Below, in pieces: positions 52,037-63,816 of a stretch of DNA of 64,000 nucleotides. The stretch spans positions 1 through 64,000 of the forward strand of contig NZ_ADGX01000026.1 of assembly GCF_000177675.1 (NCBI RefSeq), in the 5' to 3' direction. Each line of letters starts with the position of its first letter. Position 1 is the stretch's first letter. The DNA is from Parafrankia sp. EUN1f (GTDB lineage: Bacteria; Actinomycetota; Actinomycetes; Frankiales; Frankiaceae). Below the pieces are notes generated by a model that did not search any database, was not told the DNA's origin, and saw nothing but the letters and a program-made list of their open reading frames with translations. The translations under genes were made by a program, and so were the position numbers.

Positions 52037-53791
52037 TCAGGCCGCGGGCCGCAGGAGCCTCCGACGCCGGCGCGGAGCCTTGCCGGTGGCGGCCCGGGAC
52101 ATGCCGGGCCCGGTCGCGTCCCGTCGCGCCCCGATCGCGGGCGCCTGCATGGGTACTGACATCGGCACCGACACCGGCGCGGGCACCGACACGGGCGCCG
52201 GCACGGAAGCCGAGGCCGGATCCGTGGCCGAGGCCACGCCGGCAGGCGGGATGGGCCAGGCGGGGAGTACCCGAAACGCGAACACGTCGCCGACCCGGCC
52301 CTTCACCGGGCGCGGGTCCAGCGGGACGACGAGGTCGGCCGGAAGCGCCGCCGCCGTCGCCGCGCTGAGGATCGTCGCGCCCGCCTCGGCCATGGTCTGC
52401 AGCCGGGCGGCGAGGTTCATCGTGTCGCCGACCAGGGTGTACTCCCGGCGGGCGTCACAGCCCAGCAGTGCCGCGGCGACCTCACCCGTGGAGACGCCGA
52501 CGCCCAGCCCGAAAGGCTCCAGGTCGCCGCGCCTGGCCCACTGCTCGTTCAGGGCGTCCTGGCGGCGGTGCATGGCCGCAGCGGCGCGCACCGCGCGCTC
52601 CCGGTGGTCGCTGGTCGGATTCGGTGCGCCGAAGACGGCGACGACCGCGTCGCCGGCGTACTGCAGGACGCTGCCGCCCTCGTCGAGGATCGCCGCGTTC
52701 ATCTCGCGTCGATGTTCGTCGAGCTGGTGCGCGAGCACCATCGGGTCCGTGCGCTGCGCGATGCCCGAGTAGCCGCGGATGTCCGACATCAGGACGGTGA
52801 CGTCGAGGCGTTCCGCGCGACTGGCGGCCGTGGCGTCGTCGCGCAGCTTCTCCGCCAGGCCACTGGGCAGCAGCCGTGCGAACTCGGCGTCCTGCTCCTC
52901 TCGTTTCATCAGCGCCTCGTGCAGCATGCGCAGTCGGCGCAGGGCCCCGGCCTGCCCCGCGCTCGCGCCCTGGGCGAGCCGGAGCAGCAGAGTGTCGATC
53001 GCCGCGTTGACCGCGGCGGGGGTGTCGCCGTGACGCGCCGCGATCGCGGCGACGGGCCGCCCGTGGGCGACGTCGCGCAGCAGCTCCTCCTGCTCCGGGC
53101 TGAGCGTCCCGGACTCGCGAACCGGTGTCATGACGGCCGCGACGATGTCGGGGTCCAGCAGGGAGCCACCGGTGGCCACCTCGCGGATGGCCCGGGCCAG
53201 CAGATCGGGGTCGGCGACCCGTTCCTTCAGGAGGTAGGCATAGCCGGAAGCACCGTCCCGAAGCAGTGCGATCGCGTAGTCGGGCTCGTCGTACTGGGAG
53301 AGGAGCACGATGCCCGTAGCCGGGTTCGCCGCGCGGATGAGCTGGGCTGCGCGTACCCCTTCGTCGGTGAAATCCGGCGGCATGCGGATGTCGGTCACGA
53401 CCACCTCGGGACGCAGCCGGCCGGCGGCCCGCACGAGTTCGTCGTGGTCGGCGGCGACTCCGATGACCGAGATGTCCGCGACCTGGGAGAGTAGCGCCCG
53501 GACACCCTCGCGGACGATAAGGTTGTCGTCCGCGAGCAGCACGGTGATACGCGTCGTCCGCACTGTGTTGATGTTTTTCGCGCGGTCGTTTTCTGCGGTG
53601 ATGTCTGCTGGCCTGGTAGCGCCGGCCGCGGCGGCTGCCGCCGCCGTCCGGTCGCCGGCGCCGGGGCCGTCGCCGCGGGCCGCGTGGTCGCGCCCGGTGG
53701 TGTGGTCGCGCCCGGTGTGGTCGTTCCCCGTGGTGTGGTCGTTCGTGGTGTGGCTGGTTGTACTGTCGCCCGCCCTGCGGTTGCGCGCCAT
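52037..53791 (-). CDS. Receiver-cyclase: NarL-type receiver fused to class III nucleotidyl cyclase
   Basis: 584 residues from the ATG at 53791 (no clear ribosome site; GTG 53815 and GTG 53563 are alternatives). The N-terminal 75 residues have Asp/His/Thr repeats (GRDHTTGRDHAARGD). Receiver about 80-200 with D134 in VVVTDIRMPP and YLLKERV. A LuxR-like helical relic follows (LSPEQEELLRDVAHGRPVAAIAARHGDTPAAVNAAI). Cyclase about 325-480: metal Asp D337 (LMSDIRGYSG) and D381 (QYAGDAVVAVFG), GVSTGEVAAALLG, VGDTMNLAARL. The adenine-selecting Lys (normally K-x-x-G-D) is Q377. Output is probably cAMP, less likely cGMP; no TM. Divergent from the hybrid kinase. Confidence 0.9.
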   Translation of the reverse strand: MARNRRAGDSTTSHTTNDHTTGNDHTGRDHTTGRDHAARGDGPGAGDRTAAAAAAAGATRPADITAENDRAKNINTVRTTRITVLLADDNLIVREGVRALLSQVADISVIGVAADHDELVRAAGRLRPEVVVTDIRMPPDFTDEGVRAAQLIRAANPATGIVLLSQYDEPDYAIALLRDGASGYAYLLKERVADPDLLARAIREVATGGSLLDPDIVAAVMTPVRESGTLSPEQEELLRDVAHGRPVAAIAARHGDTPAAVNAAIDTLLLRLAQGASAGQAGALRRLRMLHEALMKREEQDAEFARLLPSGLAEKLRDDATAASRAERLDVTVLMSDIRGYSGIAQRTDPMVLAHQLDEHRREMNAAILDEGGSVLQYAGDAVVAVFGAPNPTSDHRERAVRAAAAMHRRQDALNEQWARRGDLEPFGLGVGVSTGEVAAALLGCDARREYTLVGDTMNLAARLQTMAEAGATILSAATAAALPADLVVPLDPRPVKGRVGDVFAFRVLPAWPIPPAGVASATDPASASVPAPVSVPAPVSVPMSVPMQAPAIGARRDATGPGMSRAATGKAPRRRRRLLRPAA

Positions 53792-54006
53792 GGCAATATT
53801 CAGCCGATTCGGCACCGCCGGCGCCAGCAGGCTGGGGTCACCCCGGCGGGGGTGCTGGCACCACCTTCGTGGGGCGGACTGGCCTCACCGCTCGCTGTGC
53901 ACACTGCTTACCGCTCGTCGCTCGTCCCGGGTAGCCGGTCGCAGGTCGTGGTCGCCGCTGGCTGTGGTCGCGCGGCGTCCGACACCAGGCAGGCTAGATC
54001 GTATGT

Positions 54007-54018: not shown

Positions 54019-54112
54019 TTCCGTTTCAATCCGTACGAGGTCGATCCTGGTAAGCGGCGCGGGCTAACATGCGTCATTGCGTGACACATCGTTCACAGTC
54101 TGGGAGTTGTCG

Positions 54113-56152
54113 TTGGCGGGATATGCCGACGTCCCGCCTGGCAGTCTGCTGGATGCCGCGCCGGACGCGATCGTCGGTGTGCGCCCGGATGGCCGCATCG
54201 TGCTGGTGAATGCCCAGGCCGAGTGGCTGTTCGGGTACAGCCGCGAGGAGCTGGTCGGCCAGCCGGTGGAGATCCTCGTGCCCGAGGTGTTCCGCGCGGC
54301 CCACCCGGCTCGGCGGGGCGCGTATCTGGCGGATCCGCGGCCACGGCCGATGGGCGCGGGTATGGAGCTCGCGGCCCTTCGCCGGGACGGGACCCAGTTC
54401 CCGGCCGAGATCTCGCTCTCGGCCGTGCGGACCGCAGAGGGCACGTTCGTCACGGCGGCGATCCGTGATGTGACAAGTCGTAAGCGTGCCGAGGCGATGT
54501 TCCGGGGCCTGCTGGAGGCGGCGCCGGACGCGATCGTCGGCGTGCGTCCGGATGGCCGCATCGCGTTGGTGAACGCGCAGGCCGAGCGGCTGTTCGGGTA
54601 CGGCCGCGACGAACTGGTCGGCCAGTCGGTCGAGATCCTCGTGCCGGAGTCGGCCCGGCACCTGCACCCACAGCACCGCGAGCGTTATTTCAGCGATCCG
54701 CGGCCACGCCCGATGGGCGCGGGCATGCAGCTCGCCGCGCGACGCCGGGACGGGACGGAGTTCCCGGCCGAGATCTCGCTGTCCGCGCTGGAGACCGAGG
54801 ACGGGCTGCTCGTCTCCGCCGCGATCCGGGACGTCACCGACCGGCTGGAAGCGCAGGCGGAGCGGGAGCGGCTACGGGCCCAGGCCGAGCGGGAGCGGCT
54901 GGAGGTGCAGCTCCACCAGTCGCAGCGACTGGAAAGCCTGGGCCAGCTCGCGGGCGGGGTGGCGCACGACTTCAACAACCTGCTCGCGGTCATCATCAAC
55001 TACACGACCTTCGTGGGGGAGGTCGTCACCGACGCGGCAAAGGTCCAGGGTGGCCGCTGGGAGTCCGCCCGGCAGGACATCGAGCAGATCCAACGGGCCG
55101 CCGAGCGGGCCGCGCAGCTGACCCATCAGCTCCTCGCCTTCGGCCGGCGCGAGGTCGTGCAGCCCAAGCCGCTCGACCTCAACGGGGTCGTTCACGACAT
55201 GGAGCAGCTGCTGCGCCGCACCCTCGGCGAGCATGTGGAGCTGCACACCTCCGCGTACCCCGGCCTGTGGCCCGTGCTGGCCGACGTCGGCCAGATCGAG
55301 CAGGTTCTGGTCAACCTCGCGGTCAACGCCCGGGACGCCATGCCAGGCGGCGGCACGCTCACCATCGACACGGCGAACGTGCGGGTCAACGAGGAGACGG
55401 CCGGTACGCGTCCGGGGGCGCGCCCCGGGCGTTTCGTGCACCTGCGGGTCAGCGACAGCGGCACGGGCATGCGCCCGGAAGTCGTCACGCGGGCCTTCGA
55501 GCCCTTCTTCACCACCAAGGCGAAGGGTGAGGGCTCCGGGCTGGGCCTCGCGACGGTCTACGGCATCATCACCCAGGCGGGTGGCCACGTGGAGATCATC
55601 TCGACGGTCGACGTCGGCACCACCGTCAGCGCGATGCTGCCGGCGATCGAGGGTGCCGTGCCGGCGATCGAGGAGGTCGCGACGGGCGGTGAGCTGTTCG
55701 GCGGCGAGACGATCATGGTCGTGGAGGACGAGTCCGCGATGCGCGAGCTCACCCGGCGCATCCTCGCCCGCAACGGCTACCGGGTGATCACGGCCCGCAG
55801 CGGCCCCGAGGCGATCACGATGGCGCAGCAGCTGACGGCCGACATCCACCTGCTGCTGACGGATGTCGTCATGCCGCAGGTGCTGGGCAGGGAGGTGGCG
55901 GAGCGGATCTGCCTCGGGCGCCCGAGCCTGCGGGTGCTTTACATGTCCGGGTACGCCTATCCCGCACTCGCCCAGAACGGGACGCTCGCTCCCGGGCTCG
56001 CCCTGCTCACCAAGCCGTTCTCGGAGCGGGTGCTGCTGTCCAAGGTGCGCGAGGTGCTCGACGCCGCCCCGGCGGCCCGGCCCGCGCCCGGCCAGGCCCC
56101 GGCCGAGGCGGGTCCGTACCCGCTCCCGTGGTCGGCCGACGGCGGCGGCTGA
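54113..56152 (+). CDS. Hybrid sensor kinase: PAS-PAS-HisKA-HATPase-receiver
   Basis: About 679 residues from the TTG at 54113 (GGGAG at 6 nt); a TTG at 54077 is possible. Two PAS domains (about 8-120 and 125-245) are near copies of each other (APDAIVGVRPDGRI.LVNAQAE.LFGY, PRPRPMGAGM, AEISLSA). A short coiled coil (AERERLRAQAERERLEVQ) leads to H285 in LAGGVAHDFNNLLAVI; the ATPase has NLAVNARDAMPGGG, DSGTGM and EGSGLGLATVYGI. The receiver has VVEDES, D584 in LLTDVVMP and LLTKPFSERVL. No TM, so it senses a cytosolic cue. It may phosphorylate the receiver-cyclase or the receiver at 57 kb. Confidence 0.92.
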   Translation: MAGYADVPPGSLLDAAPDAIVGVRPDGRIVLVNAQAEWLFGYSREELVGQPVEILVPEVFRAAHPARRGAYLADPRPRPMGAGMELAALRRDGTQFPAEISLSAVRTAEGTFVTAAIRDVTSRKRAEAMFRGLLEAAPDAIVGVRPDGRIALVNAQAERLFGYGRDELVGQSVEILVPESARHLHPQHRERYFSDPRPRPMGAGMQLAARRRDGTEFPAEISLSALETEDGLLVSAAIRDVTDRLEAQAERERLRAQAERERLEVQLHQSQRLESLGQLAGGVAHDFNNLLAVIINYTTFVGEVVTDAAKVQGGRWESARQDIEQIQRAAERAAQLTHQLLAFGRREVVQPKPLDLNGVVHDMEQLLRRTLGEHVELHTSAYPGLWPVLADVGQIEQVLVNLAVNARDAMPGGGTLTIDTANVRVNEETAGTRPGARPGRFVHLRVSDSGTGMRPEVVTRAFEPFFTTKAKGEGSGLGLATVYGIITQAGGHVEIISTVDVGTTVSAMLPAIEGAVPAIEEVATGGELFGGETIMVVEDESAMRELTRRILARNGYRVITARSGPEAITMAQQLTADIHLLLTDVVMPQVLGREVAERICLGRPSLRVLYMSGYAYPALAQNGTLAPGLALLTKPFSERVLLSKVREVLDAAPAARPAPGQAPAEAGPYPLPWSADGGG

Positions 56153-56177: not shown

Positions 56178-56924
56178 CTATCGCTGCCGGTTGCCGCGGC
56201 GCGGCAACCGCACCGCGGCCGACCATGCGCCGGTCGCGGGGTCCGTCCGCAGCTCGGCGCCCAACAGCTGCGCGATCGGCGCGAGTCGCTCCCGCCAGCT
56301 CGCCGTGTTGTCCCGCGTCGCCAGTGGGCCGTCCTCGTCGTCGATGCCCGCGGGCCGCACCTGGTCGTCGGCCTCGGCCGTGAGATCCGGGGCGAAGGGC
56401 TGAACCGTGTCGGCATACGCGACGCGCAGCGCCAGGTCGATGCCCTCGGGCCTCGCCCGCACCGACACCAGGGCACGCGCGGCCTGGTGTATCGGATCGC
56501 TCTCCTGAAGCAACAGCTGAACGGCGGCGAGCAGGACGGCGACCTCTCCCAGCACCGGAGGGGCGGAATCGAGGTCCAGGCTGATGTACAGCCTTTCCAC
56601 GAGCACCCCCTCGACCCGTTGGGTCAGGCCGAGCTCGAGCATCTGCCGTGGGCTGTTGCCCGGACGGAACGGCGATGGCGGCCGGTGCAACGTGGCCGCG
56701 GTGTCACGCAGCCTGGTCTCGATCTGGGTGACCCGGTCGGCCAGGTCCTCGGTCAGGTTGCGGCGCAGGCTCGCCAGCGACAGCAGGATGCCGGTGAGCT
56801 CCTGCATCGGGCCGTCGTGCAGGGCGTCGGTCAGCGCCCGGCTCTCGCGTTCCTGTAAGGCGATCATGAGGAACATGAGGCGTTCGGTTGCGTGGGCCGG
56901 TCCGACTGGTCTCGGCTGGCTCAC
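56178..56924 (-). CDS. Degenerate NarX-like kinase (DHp kept, ATPase decayed)
   Basis: 248 residues from the GTG at 56924, which overlaps the receiver stop (GTGA). The motif RESRALTDALHDGPMQELTGILLSLASLRRNL is a HisKA_3 dimerisation helix with the phospho-acceptor His in LHDGP. The following region should be the ATPase domain but lacks the N-box Asn (ESDPIHQAARALVSVRA) and all Gly boxes; it ends GAELRTDPATGAWSAAVRLPRRG as the domain does. Such proteins can act as phosphotransfer or phosphatase partners. Convergent with the hybrid kinase gene 25 bp away. Confidence 0.8.
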   Translation of the reverse strand: MSQPRPVGPAHATERLMFLMIALQERESRALTDALHDGPMQELTGILLSLASLRRNLTEDLADRVTQIETRLRDTAATLHRPPSPFRPGNSPRQMLELGLTQRVEGVLVERLYISLDLDSAPPVLGEVAVLLAAVQLLLQESDPIHQAARALVSVRARPEGIDLALRVAYADTVQPFAPDLTAEADDQVRPAGIDDEDGPLATRDNTASWRERLAPIAQLLGAELRTDPATGAWSAAVRLPRRGNRQR

Positions 56925-57355
56925 CCGGCCCGCCCGGGGCGTACACCGTCCCACGGGCCGTTCTCGGCGGGGCGGCGGCCGGCAAGGCGGTTGACCGCGT
57001 CGAGGAGGTCGTCCGCCCGGAAGGGCTTGAGGAGAACCGCCACCTCGTCCGGTGTGGGATCGGCGACGGCGCCGGTGAGCACGAGACAGCGCCGGGAGAC
57101 GAGCGGGTCCTGCGCACGGAGCAGGGCGAACAGCTCGGTGCCTCGTTCCGGGCCGAGCCGGGTGTCGATGACGATGGCGTCGAACTCCAACGGCCGCAGT
57201 GCGAGGGCCTCGGCGATGCCGGCGGCAGTGTCCACCGCCCAGCCACCGTCGGCCAGCACCCGCGCCGCGAGGACCCGGATCATCTCCTGATCGTCCACCA
57301 CAAGCGCCCGTGGCCGGACGTGCCGGGGCGCCTCACCGCTATATGGGTTCCGCAC
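56921..57355 (-). CDS. Stand-alone receiver protein
   Basis: 144 residues; GTG at 57355 with GAGG at 4 nt. Receiver motifs ALVVDDQEMIRVLA, D64 in AIVIDTRLGPERG, a Thr in LVLTGAV and Lys in VLLKPFRADDLL. D64 is followed by TRLG rather than the usual xxMPxxxG, with G present later. It is coupled to the degenerate kinase, suggesting a phosphorelay pair; the DGC-like gene lies upstream on the same strand. Confidence 0.9.
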   Translation of the reverse strand: MRNPYSGEAPRHVRPRALVVDDQEMIRVLAARVLADGGWAVDTAAGIAEALALRPLEFDAIVIDTRLGPERGTELFALLRAQDPLVSRRCLVLTGAVADPTPDEVAVLLKPFRADDLLDAVNRLAGRRPAENGPWDGVRPGRAG

Positions 57356-57484: not shown

Positions 57485-60400
57485 TCACCATACGTGCTCG
57501 ACACCTGCTCCGGGAAGCGGGCTGCCTGCACCGCCGACACCGTCCCTGCTGACTGTGTCGTTCGTGTGGTCCGTTCGCGTCATCGGGTGCCTGGAATCCG
57601 GTGAGCGTGCGGGATCCGTCGGGTCCGCGAGGGTGATCCGGCCGGCGCGGTTGCGGCGCGCAGGGGGTGTGAGCGGTGCGGCCGGGGGGCCGCCGCCGGC
57701 CCGCTTCGCCTCGTACATGGCGGCGTCGGCCAGCCCGATGACGGCCTGCGGGTCGGCCACCCCGCGGGAGAGCGCGACGCCGACGGTGGCGCCCACCGAC
57801 ACCAGCTGCCCGTCCGCGAGGATGGGCCGGCGCAGCGCCGAGGTGATCCGATCCGCGGCGTCCCAGGCCACCGTCTCCACGTCCAGTCCACCGGTGGGCG
57901 CGGTAGACCCGGCCAGTACGGCGACGAACTCGTCACCGCCCACGCGGAACACCGCTCCCCGCTCGGGCCGGTACCAGGCCCGCCCCGCGATGCCGCACAG
58001 CCAGGACGACGGCCGGCGCAACCGGCGTCGTCCTTCGTCGTACCGCTCACCGCCCCCGAGGCCCATGGCAGCTCCGCCGGACCCGTCGCCCGCTCCGACC
58101 AGCGACTGCGTGCCATCCGGCGACTGCGCTCCATCCGGCGACCGCGCTCCATCCGGCGACCGCGACTGCGTGGTGTCCGCGGCGCAGCCATACGCGGCAT
58201 CTCCAGCGGCGTCGTCGTCGCGGCTGTCGCCTTCGCCCTCGTCGTCGATGTCGATGTCGCTCCCGGTGTCGCCCTCGGAGGTGAGGATCCGTCGGATTCG
58301 CGCCGCGGCCACGCGCAGCACGTGGTCACCGACCGCGTGTCCGAAGGTGTCATTGATGGGTTTGAACCTGTCGAGATCGACGAGCAGGATCGCGAAGGCC
58401 GCCTGATCGCGTGAGATCGTCTCAAGGTGCTCCGCGAGCGCCGCCCGGTTGGGCAGGCCGGTGAGCGGGTCGTGGCGGGCTCGTCGACGCAGCTGTTCGG
58501 TGAGACCCCGCCACTGCCCGATCTCCCGGCAGGTCAGGACGGGAACATGCGGCTGCCCCGCCGAGGCCGGCATCTCCCAGGCCGCGGCCTCGATGTCGAA
58601 CCAGCGGTAGGTGCCGTCCTGCGTCTCGAGCCGGACATCCTGTAGCGACGGGCCGTCCAGCGGTGTGCTCAGGAGCATGCGCACGGCGGGCCGGTCGTCG
58701 GGGTGCACGTAGCGCAGCAGGTCATGGCCGACCATCGTCGCTCTGTCCCGGCCCAGCAGGTTGCCGACCGCCGCGCTGGCGAAGGCGAGCCGCCCGCCGC
58801 GGTCGAGCAGGATGACGATGTCGCTCGCCTCGTGCAGGAGGACGCCGAGCTCGTCGAGGTCCTGGCGGATGGCGCGCTCCTGCCGCCGGTTGGAGACCGC
58901 GAGCCCGATGATCGTCACACCGATGATGCCGAAGAGCAGCCCGTTGCCGAGTGGACGATGCTCCCGCACACTCTGCTCGACCACGTCGGCGGTCTGGTCG
59001 AGCAGCACGTAGCCGCCACCTTTGATCGCGGCCGCGACGGCGATCGTGTCGGGTCCGCTGCGCGAGTGCACCTGCGTGGGCTCGCCGTTGCGGATGCCGA
59101 CAAGCTCGGCCGGGTCGACCAGGACGCGGCCCACCAGAGTCCCGTCCCAGGCCAGGATCGCCTGGCCGTTCTGGTCGAGGATCGAGATGCCGCCCTGGCC
59201 GAGGTCACTGGACAGTCCGTCGGTCGTGCGAAGGATCCGGGCCGCCGGCAGGATGTTCGTCGGGCACATCATGAGCTGAGCGGCCGTCGCGCCATCCCGC
59301 AGGATCGGGGTGACGGTGCAGATTCGGTCACCGCCCGCGACCGGCAGCAGCGGAGTCATCGCCCCGCCCTGACTGGAGCGGGCCCACAGCGGGTTGTTCG
59401 GAGGAATCGGCACCTCCGCCCCGGGCGGCTCGACCGCCATCGGCCTGCCGGTCCGATCGACCACGGCGAGAAGTGCGCTGGGGCCGGCGATCGGTGTCGC
59501 GGCCATGGTTCGCAGGGCTTCGACGAGGGCGGCGTGGTTGTTGAGGTCCCACGGAAACTCCGAGACGGCACCGGTAAGCCGAGCGGGATCGCTGACAGCG
59601 TGCGCGTACTCGGCGAAATGCTCGACGAGCGCCGCGCCGGCCGCCAACCGCTGCCGTTGGGCCCGGGCGCCCGCGGAGGCTTCCACGGACAGCCCGGTGG
59701 CCGCTGTGCCCAGCAGGACCACGAGCACCGTCACGGAAGGGAACACGGCGGTCAGCCGCCGCCGACGCCCGCCGCCCGGCCGGTACGGCGCGGCCCCGCG
59801 GCCGCCGCGGCCCGCCCGTCCGCGCCACCGTCGCGAGATCGCCCGGTCGCCGCCTGCCGGCGCTGGGACCGCTCGCGATGCCACGGAGCTTCCCGGGGCC
59901 GACAGCGCTGTCCGTGCCGGGCTGGCCGGCTCCTGCTCCGTCCGATGCCGGCCCGTGATCGGGCTCCCGTCGACGCTCTCGCCGGCGCCTGCGCCGACGC
60001 CCGTGTCGACCGCGGCATCGCTGTTCACGCCCGTGCGGCTGTTCACGATCGCGTGGCTGTTCACGCTCGTGCCGCGGTCCGTGCCGCGGTCCGTGGCGTG
60101 GGTTACGGCCTCGGCCCCTGCCTCGGCGACGCTGAGCGCGTGGCAGCCGCGGCCCGCGGCCTTGGCTCGGTACATCGCCTCGTCCGCGGTCCGGACCAGG
60201 TGTTCGGGTGGGCACGCGGCGCGGGTGACCCCGACGCCGATGCTGGCGTCGACAGTGACCTCGGCCGTGTCCAGAACGATCGGTTCACGCAGCACCGCGC
60301 CGATGCGCTCGGCGAGCTCGGCGGCGCTCTCCTCGTCGACGCCGGGGAGGACGACACCGAACTCGTCGCCGCCGAAGCGGCAGGGCGTGGGTGTGCCGGC

Positions 60401-62077
60401 GGCCATCGGCGGCACGGCATCGGCCGCGGGGGCCGCCGCCTTCGCGCCGGCGGCAGGTACGGCGGTGAGCACAGCGGTGAGCCGCTCGGCCACGACGGTC
60501 AGTACCCGGTCGCCGGCGGCATGCCCGTAGGTGTCATTGATCGGCTTGAAATGGTCCAGGTCGATGAACAGCACGGAGACGGGCTCGGCCGGTTCCCGGT
60601 CGGCGAGTGCGGTGGCGAGGCGATCATCGAAGGTCGCCCGGTTGGCCAGGCCCGTAAGCGGGTCGTGCTGGGCCTGGAACCCGAGCTCGTCGAGCAGAAC
60701 CCGCCGCCGCTCGATCGAGTGGCAGGTGAGGACCACTCGTCCTGGACGAATCGTGTCGGCGAGCCGCCGCGCCGACACGTCGAACCAGTGCTCGCCGCCG
60801 GTGCTGGACAACAGCCGGACGTTCATCACGGTCGAGGGGTGCGCCTCGGACAGCTCGGACAGCACCGCGGCGACCCGGAGCGTGTCGGCGCGGTGAACCA
60901 GCGTCGAAAGCTGCCGCCCGCGAAGCGCGTCCGGGTCGTGCCCGAGCCGGGACAGCACCGCCGGGCTCACGAACTCCAGGAGGCCGTCCGCCGAGACGGT
61001 CATCACGATGTCGCGGCTGGCGGCGAGCAGGGAGCGTAGATCGTCACGCCGGCGAAGGGTGCGCGTCTGCTCGTGCAGACCGACGGCGGCGATCGAGAGG
61101 ACGGCGACGACCGTCACCACCAGCAGGGTGACCAGGCGGTGGGAGTGCTGGGTCCGCAGCTGTGCGTATAACTGGCTGGTCGGCTGGGCGAGGTAGGTGA
61201 AGTACCCGGTGGTCGGCTGGGCCGCGGCGATGTGGGTGTAGCCGTTCTCGCCGCCGGTGGCCCAGATCGTGGGCTTGCCGGCCGAGCGTCGCGCCTCGCC
61301 AAGCCGCACCGGGTCGAGCACCCGGGTTCCGATCAGGGCTCTGTCCGTGGAGACCAGCGCGACGCCGTTCGGATCGACTGTTGAGACGGAGCCCTTGCCG
61401 GGTAGTCGCAGCAGCGAGCCCAGTGCGGTGCCGAGCTGGGCGCCCGATTCCTCGGAGGAGACGCTGACGAGGACGGCCCAGGGGCGGGCTCCGCCCACCG
61501 GGACGACGGTTGCCCGCACGACCAGCCCGTTCAGCCTGAACACCGGTGACACCGCGTTGTCGCCGCGCCAGGCGGTCGCCCAGGCGGGCCCGAGGTCCGT
61601 GACGTCGAGGGTCTCGTGCGCCGGCCTGATCGTGAGGGGCGCCCCGGACCGGTCGATCAACGCGACCAGCAGGGTGGTGTCGCCGCTGGTGGTGAACTGG
61701 AACCTGGCTGCCAACTGGTTGTTGAGACCGGAGTTGCCGCGCTCGAAAGCCGTGCTGTCGACCAGGGCGCGCAGATCGGCCGGGTCGTCGGTGCCGGCTT
61801 CCCAGCTCGCCAGGTTCCTGATCAGATTCGCGCGGCCCGTGAGGCGGGTGCTCTCGGCGCCGTCGAGCCAGCGCCCGCCGACGACCAGTGCCACTGCGCT
61901 CAGCACGAGGATCGCGAGGACGCCACTCAGAAGGGGTGAACAGGCAGGCCGGACCGGGTTATGGAACCACAACCGCCGCCTGACCGGTGGCCGGGCGTGT
62001 TCGTCAGTCGCCGTCCAGCGCCGCCGGTGGGCCATCGTCATCAGTCGGTTTCCGCTCCACCATCTCGCCGTCGGCAT
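57485..62077 (-). CDS. Tandem double GGDEF receptor (two TM-sensor-TM-PAS-GGDEF units in one chain)
   Basis: About 1530 residues from the ATG at 62077 (GAGG at 5 nt; ATGs at 62206 and 62041 are alternatives). Unit 1: TM (about 45-65), outer sensor, TM (313-335), PAS (350-465), GGDEF at 569-573 (CRFGGDEFGVVL). Unit 2: TM (776-800), outer sensor (to 1035), TM (1039-1060), PAS, GGDEF at 1380-1384 (FRVGGDEFVAVL). Both cyclase domains start with HDPLTGL.NRA and keep D-x-D-x-F-K-x-I-N-D; neither has RxxD five residues before GGDEF, so no I-site. The second domain has an insertion of about 100 acidic and SPDGA-repeat residues. Four TMs, both catalytic ends cytosolic. Predicted c-di-GMP synthase; no EAL domain. 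Confidence 0.92.
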   Translation of the reverse strand: MPTARWWSGNRLMTMAHRRRWTATDEHARPPVRRRLWFHNPVRPACSPLLSGVLAILVLSAVALVVGGRWLDGAESTRLTGRANLIRNLASWEAGTDDPADLRALVDSTAFERGNSGLNNQLAARFQFTTSGDTTLLVALIDRSGAPLTIRPAHETLDVTDLGPAWATAWRGDNAVSPVFRLNGLVVRATVVPVGGARPWAVLVSVSSEESGAQLGTALGSLLRLPGKGSVSTVDPNGVALVSTDRALIGTRVLDPVRLGEARRSAGKPTIWATGGENGYTHIAAAQPTTGYFTYLAQPTSQLYAQLRTQHSHRLVTLLVVTVVAVLSIAAVGLHEQTRTLRRRDDLRSLLAASRDIVMTVSADGLLEFVSPAVLSRLGHDPDALRGRQLSTLVHRADTLRVAAVLSELSEAHPSTVMNVRLLSSTGGEHWFDVSARRLADTIRPGRVVLTCHSIERRRVLLDELGFQAQHDPLTGLANRATFDDRLATALADREPAEPVSVLFIDLDHFKPINDTYGHAAGDRVLTVVAERLTAVLTAVPAAGAKAAAPAADAVPPMAAGTPTPCRFGGDEFGVVLPGVDEESAAELAERIGAVLREPIVLDTAEVTVDASIGVGVTRAACPPEHLVRTADEAMYRAKAAGRGCHALSVAEAGAEAVTHATDRGTDRGTSVNSHAIVNSRTGVNSDAAVDTGVGAGAGESVDGSPITGRHRTEQEPASPARTALSAPGSSVASRAVPAPAGGDRAISRRWRGRAGRGGRGAAPYRPGGGRRRRLTAVFPSVTVLVVLLGTAATGLSVEASAGARAQRQRLAAGAALVEHFAEYAHAVSDPARLTGAVSEFPWDLNNHAALVEALRTMAATPIAGPSALLAVVDRTGRPMAVEPPGAEVPIPPNNPLWARSSQGGAMTPLLPVAGGDRICTVTPILRDGATAAQLMMCPTNILPAARILRTTDGLSSDLGQGGISILDQNGQAILAWDGTLVGRVLVDPAELVGIRNGEPTQVHSRSGPDTIAVAAAIKGGGYVLLDQTADVVEQSVREHRPLGNGLLFGIIGVTIIGLAVSNRRQERAIRQDLDELGVLLHEASDIVILLDRGGRLAFASAAVGNLLGRDRATMVGHDLLRYVHPDDRPAVRMLLSTPLDGPSLQDVRLETQDGTYRWFDIEAAAWEMPASAGQPHVPVLTCREIGQWRGLTEQLRRRARHDPLTGLPNRAALAEHLETISRDQAAFAILLVDLDRFKPINDTFGHAVGDHVLRVAAARIRRILTSEGDTGSDIDIDDEGEGDSRDDDAAGDAAYGCAADTTQSRSPDGARSPDGAQSPDGTQSLVGAGDGSGGAAMGLGGGERYDEGRRRLRRPSSWLCGIAGRAWYRPERGAVFRVGGDEFVAVLAGSTAPTGGLDVETVAWDAADRITSALRRPILADGQLVSVGATVGVALSRGVADPQAVIGLADAAMYEAKRAGGGPPAAPLTPPARRNRAGRITLADPTDPARSPDSRHPMTRTDHTNDTVSRDGVGGAGSPLPGAGVEHVW

Positions 62078-63126
62078 GACGGCCTCGTGCCGGAACCGAT
62101 CTGGACCGTGGTATTGCCGCGGTCTGTGCAATCCCGGCAGCAAGAGCATACGAGTGTGCGTCTCGAGACTTTCGCTGGCCGGTAGGTCGCCGCGTTCTTT
62201 CGTCACCGGTGCCCGGCCGGACGAATTGCCGGTGGCCAGGAATCCGCCAGGTCATGTGTGTAGCACGGAGCCTTTTCAGCCGATGATCGTTGTGCGGTCA
62301 AACTGGTGCGTGGCCGCTGATCGCTCACTGCGGGACCACAGCTGCCAATCCGTCGGTGGTGCGGGTGATGGCCCGTGTGGCACGCCGTAGGTCACTCTCG
62401 CGGCAGGGGACCGTCGTGGCTTCCGGGTGCCCGGTAGTGGTCTCTCCGTGCCGGAAGGTAGCCGGGCGCCGACCGCTTCGCAGCACGTAGCGATCATGCG
62501 GAAGCGTAGCGGTGGCAAGGTCGGCCAGCCGCTGCCGCCAGGTCTCAGATGGATGCACGCTCCGTAGTTTCGATCATGTCATCGATTGAGATGGTGGGAG
62601 GGCGTCGCTCCCTGCGATCCGACTGGTGGTCGAGCGAACCTGCTGGTCCTCGTCTTGTCTGTGCGGAGGGCGGCGAGTTGTCGCGCGGTTTGGTTGACAT
62701 GACACAGCGCTACTGGTGCGCAGTGGGAGCAGTAGAAAGGGCTGTTGGGATGTCGAGCCTGTGGGATTACGGGCGGATCGGCGGATGGTCGGTGTGGTAG
62801 AAAGGGCGTGACTCAAAGCCGCCGGTTCCAGCCGGTGTCAAATCGATTGCCGCGCCCCGGTCGGGTTGGTGGTGCGGGGTGATGGTCATGGCTGTCCGGC
62901 GTCGGGCTGTTCCGGGTGCGCCTCGCTACCGGCTCCGTCCTGAATCCTCCGTGTCCGGAGAACGATTTCTCGTTAAAGGGTTTCGCTGGGCGTCCGCGCC
63001 TGTCGGTTCGGGTCCGCGTGCGCCGCGTCCGGTTGCGGTATGCAGTAGCCTGATCGTGCTGGCCGCTCCGGGCTGAATTCCGCCCGCGTCGTGGTTCAGG
63101 GGCGCGAGCGATGGTTCACTCTCTCC
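62078..63126. other. 1.05-kb intergenic region, lower GC
   Basis: No convincing gene. Two GTAGAAAGGGC direct repeats at about 62731 and 62798. A compact dyad AACGA-TTTC-TCGTT (62961-62974), overlapped by GAGAA-CGAT-TTCTC, lies about 150 bp before the TetR gene and may be its operator. Short open frames here lack the codon bias of the neighbours. Confidence 0.5.
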
Positions 63127-63816
63127 GTGCCCTACCGTCGCCCTGCCGTTGTGGATGACCGGCTCGCCGCGGCCCGTGAGCGGTTGGTCGCGGCGGCCAC
63201 GGATCTCGTCGCCGAAGCCGGTTGGGCCGGCGCCTCCGTCACGGCGGTCGCGGCAGCGGCAGGCATGTCGGTCGGTTCCGTCTACCAGCATTTTCCGTCC
63301 AAGTCGGAGCTGGTGTGCGAGGTCTTCCGGCGAGCCGCGGCGCAGGAGGTGGAACTCATCCGCGCGGCGGCCGGCGAGCCCAGCCCGGCGCGGGGCGTCG
63401 GCCTCACCGCCGCGGGAGATCCGGTGGATCGCCTCGTGCTGGCGGTCGCCCTGTTCACCCGGCGGGTGCTGGCGCGTCGAGGCCTGGTCCACGCGCTGCT
63501 CGTCGCGCCGTCGGATTCCGCGCTGGAGGCGCAGCGGCGCGACTTCCGCAGGCGCTACCGGGATGTCTTCGCGGCTCTGATCCGCGCGGGGGTCGAGGCG
63601 GGGATGCTGCCCACCCAGGATCCGGTGGTCGCCGCGGCGGCCCTGACGGGCGCGATCGGTGAGGTGCTCGCCGGCCCGGTCCCGATGGCCCAGGACCTGC
63701 CTCGCGATGGCAGGGAGGCCGAACCGGTGGTGCGGGAGGTCGTCGAGATAGCGCTGAGGTGCGTGGGTGCGCGCCCGATGGTCCGTGGCTGGAGCGTTGC
63801 CGAGGGAATCGGCTGA
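63127..63816 (+). CDS. TetR-family transcriptional regulator
   Basis: 229 residues from the GTG at 63127 (VPYRRPAVVDDRL); a GTG at 63091 is an alternative. Helix-turn-helix: ERLVAAATDLVAEAGWAGASVTAVAAAAGMSVGSVYQHFPSKSELVCEVF, the standard TetR N-terminus. The C-terminal helices (DPVDRLVLAVALFTRRVLARRGLVHALLVAPSDSALEAQRRDFRRRY...AALTGAIGEVLAGP) form the ligand and dimer domain. The dyad 150 bp upstream fits autoregulation. Target genes may be beyond the right edge. Confidence 0.92.
   Translation: MPYRRPAVVDDRLAAARERLVAAATDLVAEAGWAGASVTAVAAAAGMSVGSVYQHFPSKSELVCEVFRRAAAQEVELIRAAAGEPSPARGVGLTAAGDPVDRLVLAVALFTRRVLARRGLVHALLVAPSDSALEAQRRDFRRRYRDVFAALIRAGVEAGMLPTQDPVVAAAALTGAIGEVLAGPVPMAQDLPRDGREAEPVVREVVEIALRCVGARPMVRGWSVAEGIG

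Follow-up and report, generated by a model that had tools for sequence, protein, structure and literature searches.

Introduction

Diguanylate cyclases are treated as homodimers that are activated by bringing two identical GGDEF domains together, and the known PAS/dCache diguanylate cyclases are parallel homodimers. The closest described relatives of the protein reported here are single-unit dCache membrane diguanylate cyclases, for example the enzyme from Aeromonas caviae (PDB 7k5n), which likewise feature a dCache outer domain, transmembrane (TM) helices and a GGDEF output. The protein encoded at the present locus differs from these enzymes in that two complete units, with a PAS domain in between, are carried by one chain, and its first sensor is too distant for a Pfam assignment. 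Two GGDEF motifs in one frame are also found in another actinobacterial genome (L216:1340-4405), where the domain order read from the sequence is sensor-TM-GGDEF-PAS-GGDEF-EAL. The L216 protein differs in that it has a single membrane sensor and its second GGDEF, which reads SGDEF, is part of a GGDEF-EAL module. Since two-GGDEF chains exist elsewhere, what sets the present protein apart is that a complete receptor is doubled. The titles and abstracts listed in searches of the open-access literature describe GGDEF-EAL proteins and ordinary dimers, and no tandem membrane GGDEF receptor was found among them.

A second point of comparison is the mammalian membrane adenylyl cyclases, which are described in PMC9552081 as products of duplication and fusion of a bacterial progenitor; PMC9433096 presents Rv1625c/Cya as the bacterial progenitor of the mammalian-type enzymes. 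The likeness is that a membrane cyclase unit was duplicated and fused, an arrangement that would allow both catalytic domains of a single chain to form the active pair. The mammalian enzymes differ in that they are class III cyclases that produce cAMP, possess six-helix membrane domains and have no homology to GGDEF or dCache. The tandem receptor shares one feature with pseudo-heterodimeric cyclases, two homologous cyclase units in one chain that stem from one duplication according to the sensor trees. A class III cyclase catalytic domain is absent from the tandem receptor, in which Pfam finds only PAS and GGDEF domains. By analogy, it could work like a pseudo-heterodimeric adenylyl cyclase, and it is not a member of that class.

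Gene and domain architecture

The window, which is the whole stretch of 64,000 nucleotides analysed from contig NZ_ADGX01000026.1 of Parafrankia sp. EUN1f, contains the tandem receptor gene on the reverse strand at 57485..62206. The frame, read from 62206 to 57485, is uninterrupted over 1573 codons from the first GTG, and its third-position G+C is high throughout, which fits a real coding sequence in a G+C-rich genome. A preliminary description of this DNA had proposed a single polypeptide in which TM-sensor-TM-PAS-GGDEF occurs twice, and this is borne out by one 1573-aa frame with four TM helices, two PAS domains and two GGDEF domains. A stop or frameshift at 59.8-60.1 kb, which would split the gene into two, was looked for and none is present; the undivided frame recurs in other genomes. 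The start that was given originally, 62077, corresponds to Met44 of the frame. The start position is uncertain because Met56/58 (62041/62035) is aligned with a Met of the Parafrankia colletiae orthologue and dN/dS is ~1 in the region upstream of TM1. The true start is likely to lie anywhere in 62035-62077, and the candidates are 62077, 62041 and 62035.

Hydropathy and Pfam give the Parafrankia-type chain order as TM-sensor-TM-PAS-GGDEF-linker-TM-sensor-TM-PAS-GGDEF, with all features on the reverse strand. In the first unit, TM1 (aa 92-110; 61877..61933) and TM2 (aa 358-376; 61079..61135), both assigned by hydropathy, enclose outer sensor 1 (aa 111-357; 61136..61876). PAS 1 covers about aa 390-498 (60713..61039), with the Pfam PAS_9 match at aa 399-488, and is followed by GGDEF 1 (aa 512-690; 60137..60673). 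A fast-evolving cytoplasmic linker (aa 691-816; 59759..60136) with short tandem repeats and an Arg-rich end leads to TM3 (aa 818-836; 59699..59755). The second unit continues with outer sensor 2 (aa 837-1085; 58952..59698), TM4 (aa 1086-1104; 58895..58951), PAS 2 (aa 1122-1229; 58520..58843) and GGDEF 2 (aa 1243-1505; 57692..58480), where the TM helices are again assigned by hydropathy and the PAS and GGDEF domains by Pfam. The diguanylate cyclase model PF00990 scores 241.3 bits against a cut-off of 23.8 and detects both copies. Pfam thus finds two PAS and two GGDEF domains, and each GGDEF match is divided into two parts by an insertion.

The outer sensors

An AlphaFold2 model of sensor 1, built from 38 sequences, has a pLDDT of 88.0 and a pTM of 0.81. 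The best structural matches of the model in the PDB are the dCache domains of chemoreceptors and kinases, with Z up to 17.9. The comparison with PDB 7k5n, the proline-binding A. caviae diguanylate cyclase, gives a Z of 15.7, and the proline-binding domain of the Aeromonas enzyme is also among the best Foldseek matches. The modelled domain has the dCache layout, in which two PAS-like modules come after a long N-terminal helix, with a TM helix on either side. According to the model, sensor 1 is a dCache fold that is located outside the membrane between two TM helices. No Pfam Cache model matches sensor 1 of the window, and Pfam sCache_3_2 matches 3 of 38 relatives (best 7.6e-06).

Sensor 1 and sensor 2 of the window are 23% identical and are recognized by one common profile. 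Sensor 2 is homologous to sensor 1, and both are dCache relatives. The preliminary description had spoken of two different outer sensors, which has to be revised in light of this homology and the shared profile; for the same reason, two unrelated sensors in one chain are ruled out.

GGDEF domains, insertions and catalytic residues

The preliminary description had reported two intact GGDEF motifs without the RxxD inhibitory site, and both statements stand. Each motif reads GGDEF, and the metal Asp and the guanine Asn/Asp are present in both units. Across the tandem family, the metal Asp, the Lys, Asn and Asp of FKxxND, the Asp following it, the Arg two residues before GGDEF and the GDEF residues are invariant in 28/28 second units and 26/26 first units; three of these first units feature SGDEF instead of GGDEF. 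The phosphate-binding Lys is kept across the same set with one alignment gap. In six species pairs, dN/dS is below 0.7 in both GGDEF domains and reaches 0.9 in the linkers and 1.4 in the N-termini, a pattern indicating that both GGDEF domains are under purifying selection. The conserved residues suggest that both units may be catalytically active. At the RxxD place, five residues before GGDEF, the window units have AGTP and PERG. RxxD was probably lost in the window, as many relatives still have it.

The metal motif and GGDEF are 146 residues apart in unit 2 and 63 apart in unit 1, compared with 41 in uninterrupted members, which corresponds to insertions of ~105 and ~22 residues, respectively. 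The smaller insertion precedes the GGDEF hairpin of GGDEF 1 and sits at the same place as that of GGDEF 2. The insertion in unit 2 (approximate limits 57971..58270) had been described as about 100 residues of acidic and SPDGA-repeat sequence, in agreement with the measured length, and is found at the RxxD place. It consists of an acidic part, the SPDGA repeats and a genus-conserved RRRLxRPSSW...W segment. The SPDGA run, at 58091-58164, is encoded by 4.1 copies of an 18-bp repeat, and 18-bp tandem repeats are also observed in the linker at 60020-60073. Both are likely variable repeats, because the repeat content of insertion and linker is not the same in G003, a closely related sister genome. 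The segment RRRLxRPSSW...W...PE, at about 57956-58030, forms the genus-conserved close of the GGDEF 2 insertion at the lost RxxD site, and it is possibly a substitute regulatory element.

The two halves differ at one further position. In PleD, K442 and R446 are the phosphate-binding residues, and R446 contacts the GTP phosphates. The phosphate-binding Lys is present in both units of the window. Four positions past it, unit 1 has Arg but unit 2 has Gly (AKRAGGG), so unit 2 is not fully canonical. Additionally, the activity of GGDEF 2 could be reduced, because of the large insertion and because the Arg is lost in most orthologues of the group. Among 37 tandem chains, the R446-type Arg is found in both halves of 5, in exactly one half of 32 and in neither half of 0. 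It is lost from unit 1 in most groups, and from unit 2 in most orthologues of the window group and in one Acidimicrobiia gene. With related chains merged into 13 groups the pattern is not significant (chance of no overlap 0.13-0.19), and ordinary GGDEF domains of the same genome carry this Arg in 8/19 cases. An active pair shared by both halves would tolerate such an Arg asymmetry; given the merged-chain probability and the frequent lack of the Arg in ordinary GGDEF domains, the asymmetry is to be taken as a lead only. As a proof of heterodimers the pattern was rejected on the result with merged chains. PAS and GGDEF are joined by a linker of 21 residues in every measurable unit, first or second, which means that the stalks of the two units could pair in register.

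Distribution and conservation

The preliminary description knew of single-unit proteins of this kind but of no tandem fusion. The fusion belongs to a conserved family with paralogues, which that description had not recognized and which became apparent when the architecture was sought in other genomes: it recurs in the genus, in the Frankiaceae and in a family of Acidimicrobiia. A search of the window genome (9.35 Mb) revealed two paralogues of the same build, on contig 317 (1337 aa) and contig 354 (1412 aa), and both align over their full length, each unit with its counterpart. The orthologue is one frame of 1437-1739 aa in 6/6 genomes of the genus. The nearest match among named records is a 1526-aa frame in P. 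colletiae whose best segment is 59% identical. A survey of 35 Frankiaceae genomes with a profile built from nine sensor domains detected the sensor in 33 genomes and 6 of 7 genera, nearly always with two copies per frame. The exceptions are contig ends and two broken frames (G023 and G024). The break in G023 falls within GGDEF 1 and not between the units, so that it looks like a frameshift rather than a natural two-gene pair.

In the Acidimicrobiia family, which was reached via L012, matches are present in 4/4 genomes, among them tandem frames that are complete, at 1243 and 1286 aa. In a scan of 396 genomes of the phylum, in which five candidates per genome were scored, the sensor profile passed E 1e-10 in at least 4 genomes, the window's own included. 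Of the three other matches, two were read over their full length and proved to be histidine kinases that carry this sensor. The histidine kinases L175 and L176, from another actinobacterial family, feature a sensor matched by the same profile and differ from the tandem receptor in having one sensor unit and a kinase output. The doubled receptor is an old conserved family in Frankiaceae and some Acidimicrobiia and not a chance fusion. A plasmid or recent mobile origin was also considered and rejected, since plasmid records searched at the DNA level yielded nothing beyond short GGDEF matches and the flanking genes are conserved in the genus.

Age of the duplication

A tree of 62 sensor domains separates all first units (95/93) from all second units (100/97), and the kinase sensors make up a third group. 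When the Acidimicrobiia sensors are added, their first units join the unit 1 side and their second units the unit 2 side (96/94 each); the row Aci432_1 in this tree represents a second unit, from a gene that is cut. The PAS-GGDEF tree places the second units in one group (98/98), and the first units do not come out as one group. A single old internal duplication is indicated, because first units group together and second units group together in the sensor tree. Most simply, one duplication preceded the split of the three paralogue groups and of these lineages, or an already doubled gene was transferred. A recent internal duplication in the window genome is ruled out, as the split between the two units is older than that of the paralogues and that of the genera.

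Neighbouring genes

Directly downstream of the tandem receptor is a gene for a response-regulator receiver protein (56921..57355, reverse strand). It overlaps a gene for a HisKA_3-like protein (56178..56954, reverse strand), whose match is below the Pfam cut-off and in which Pfam finds no ATPase domain. A TetR gene (63091-63816, forward strand) is located on the other side of the receptor. These three genes adjoin the orthologue in 6/6 genomes of the genus, and a functional link with the tandem receptor is possible. Related receiver and HisKA_3-like genes are located near two further Frankiaceae loci (L172 and L174). Further along, the window contains a 592-aa protein in which a receiver domain is fused to a class III nucleotide cyclase (Guanylate_cyc; 52037-53815, reverse strand), adjoined by a PAS-PAS-histidine kinase-receiver gene (54077-56152, forward strand). 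This pair of genes is also found near the P. colletiae orthologue.

Proposed mechanism and alternatives

The reading that we favor, with a probability of about 0.5, is that the protein is a single-chain doubled membrane diguanylate cyclase receptor in which the two GGDEF domains of one chain pair as a pseudo-heterodimer. Each outer dCache domain would read a ligand and relay the resulting change via its TM2, its PAS domain and the constant-length linker. The GGDEF domains of one chain would next come together as a pseudo-heterodimer that makes c-di-GMP from two GTP, much as one catalytic core is built from the two halves of a mammalian membrane adenylyl cyclase. What the analysis establishes is the architecture, its conservation, a single duplication as indicated by the trees, the modelled dCache fold of sensor 1, the preserved catalytic residues and the signature of purifying selection; we infer catalytic activity, pairing of the GGDEF domains within the chain and joint control by two ligands. 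The active dimer within one chain that the preliminary description had proposed is plausible, whereas its AND gate or ratio sensor would be a speculative form of control, as both sensors are dCache relatives. More tentatively, the two dCache receptors may jointly control one active site, which would make the receptor an independent bacterial analogue, for c-di-GMP, of the way mammalian adenylyl cyclases are designed, with one half free to lose the GTP-site Arg if the other keeps it.

A different arrangement, which we consider unlikely, is that two chains dimerize mutually, unit 1 with unit 1' and unit 2 with unit 2', in which case the fusion would do no more than co-localize two independent cyclases and keep their amounts equal. 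This is how the known PAS/dCache enzymes are built, as parallel homodimers, and nearly all catalytic residues are kept in both halves, as independent enzymes need. It leaves two things unexplained, the near-absence of separate units in the family and the asymmetric loss of the Arg, and both points are inconclusive. The kept GGDEF domains, the 21-residue linker and the Arg pattern do not tell pairing within a chain from pairing between chains.

It is rather improbable that a single half acts as the enzyme and its partner serves as a regulatory GGDEF domain for binding GTP or the product. In the window the regulatory half would be unit 2, which combines an insertion at the RxxD place with the loss of the R446-type Arg, and in most other groups it is unit 1 that lost this Arg. 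However, degenerate regulatory GGDEF domains usually lose the GGDEF motif, whereas here neither half has lost GDEF, the metal and guanine residues or the phosphate Lys, and both GGDEF domains are under purifying selection. There is next to no chance that a sequencing or assembly error joined two ordinary genes. Split frames do occur in two genomes (G023 and G024), but undivided frames are found in dozens of independent genomes, and a frameshift or assembly artefact is ruled out by this recurrence of a single tandem frame.

Biological significance

The tandem receptor is present in almost all of the Frankiaceae genomes examined, and the Frankiaceae include nitrogen-fixing plant symbionts. According to PMC4151990, c-di-GMP governs the development of sporulating actinomycetes via BldD. 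If the two GGDEF domains of one chain do pair, the receptor would provide a genetically clean enzyme for testing the division of work between GGDEF halves, and two signals could be compared before any c-di-GMP is made, with both partners and their sensors in one chain.
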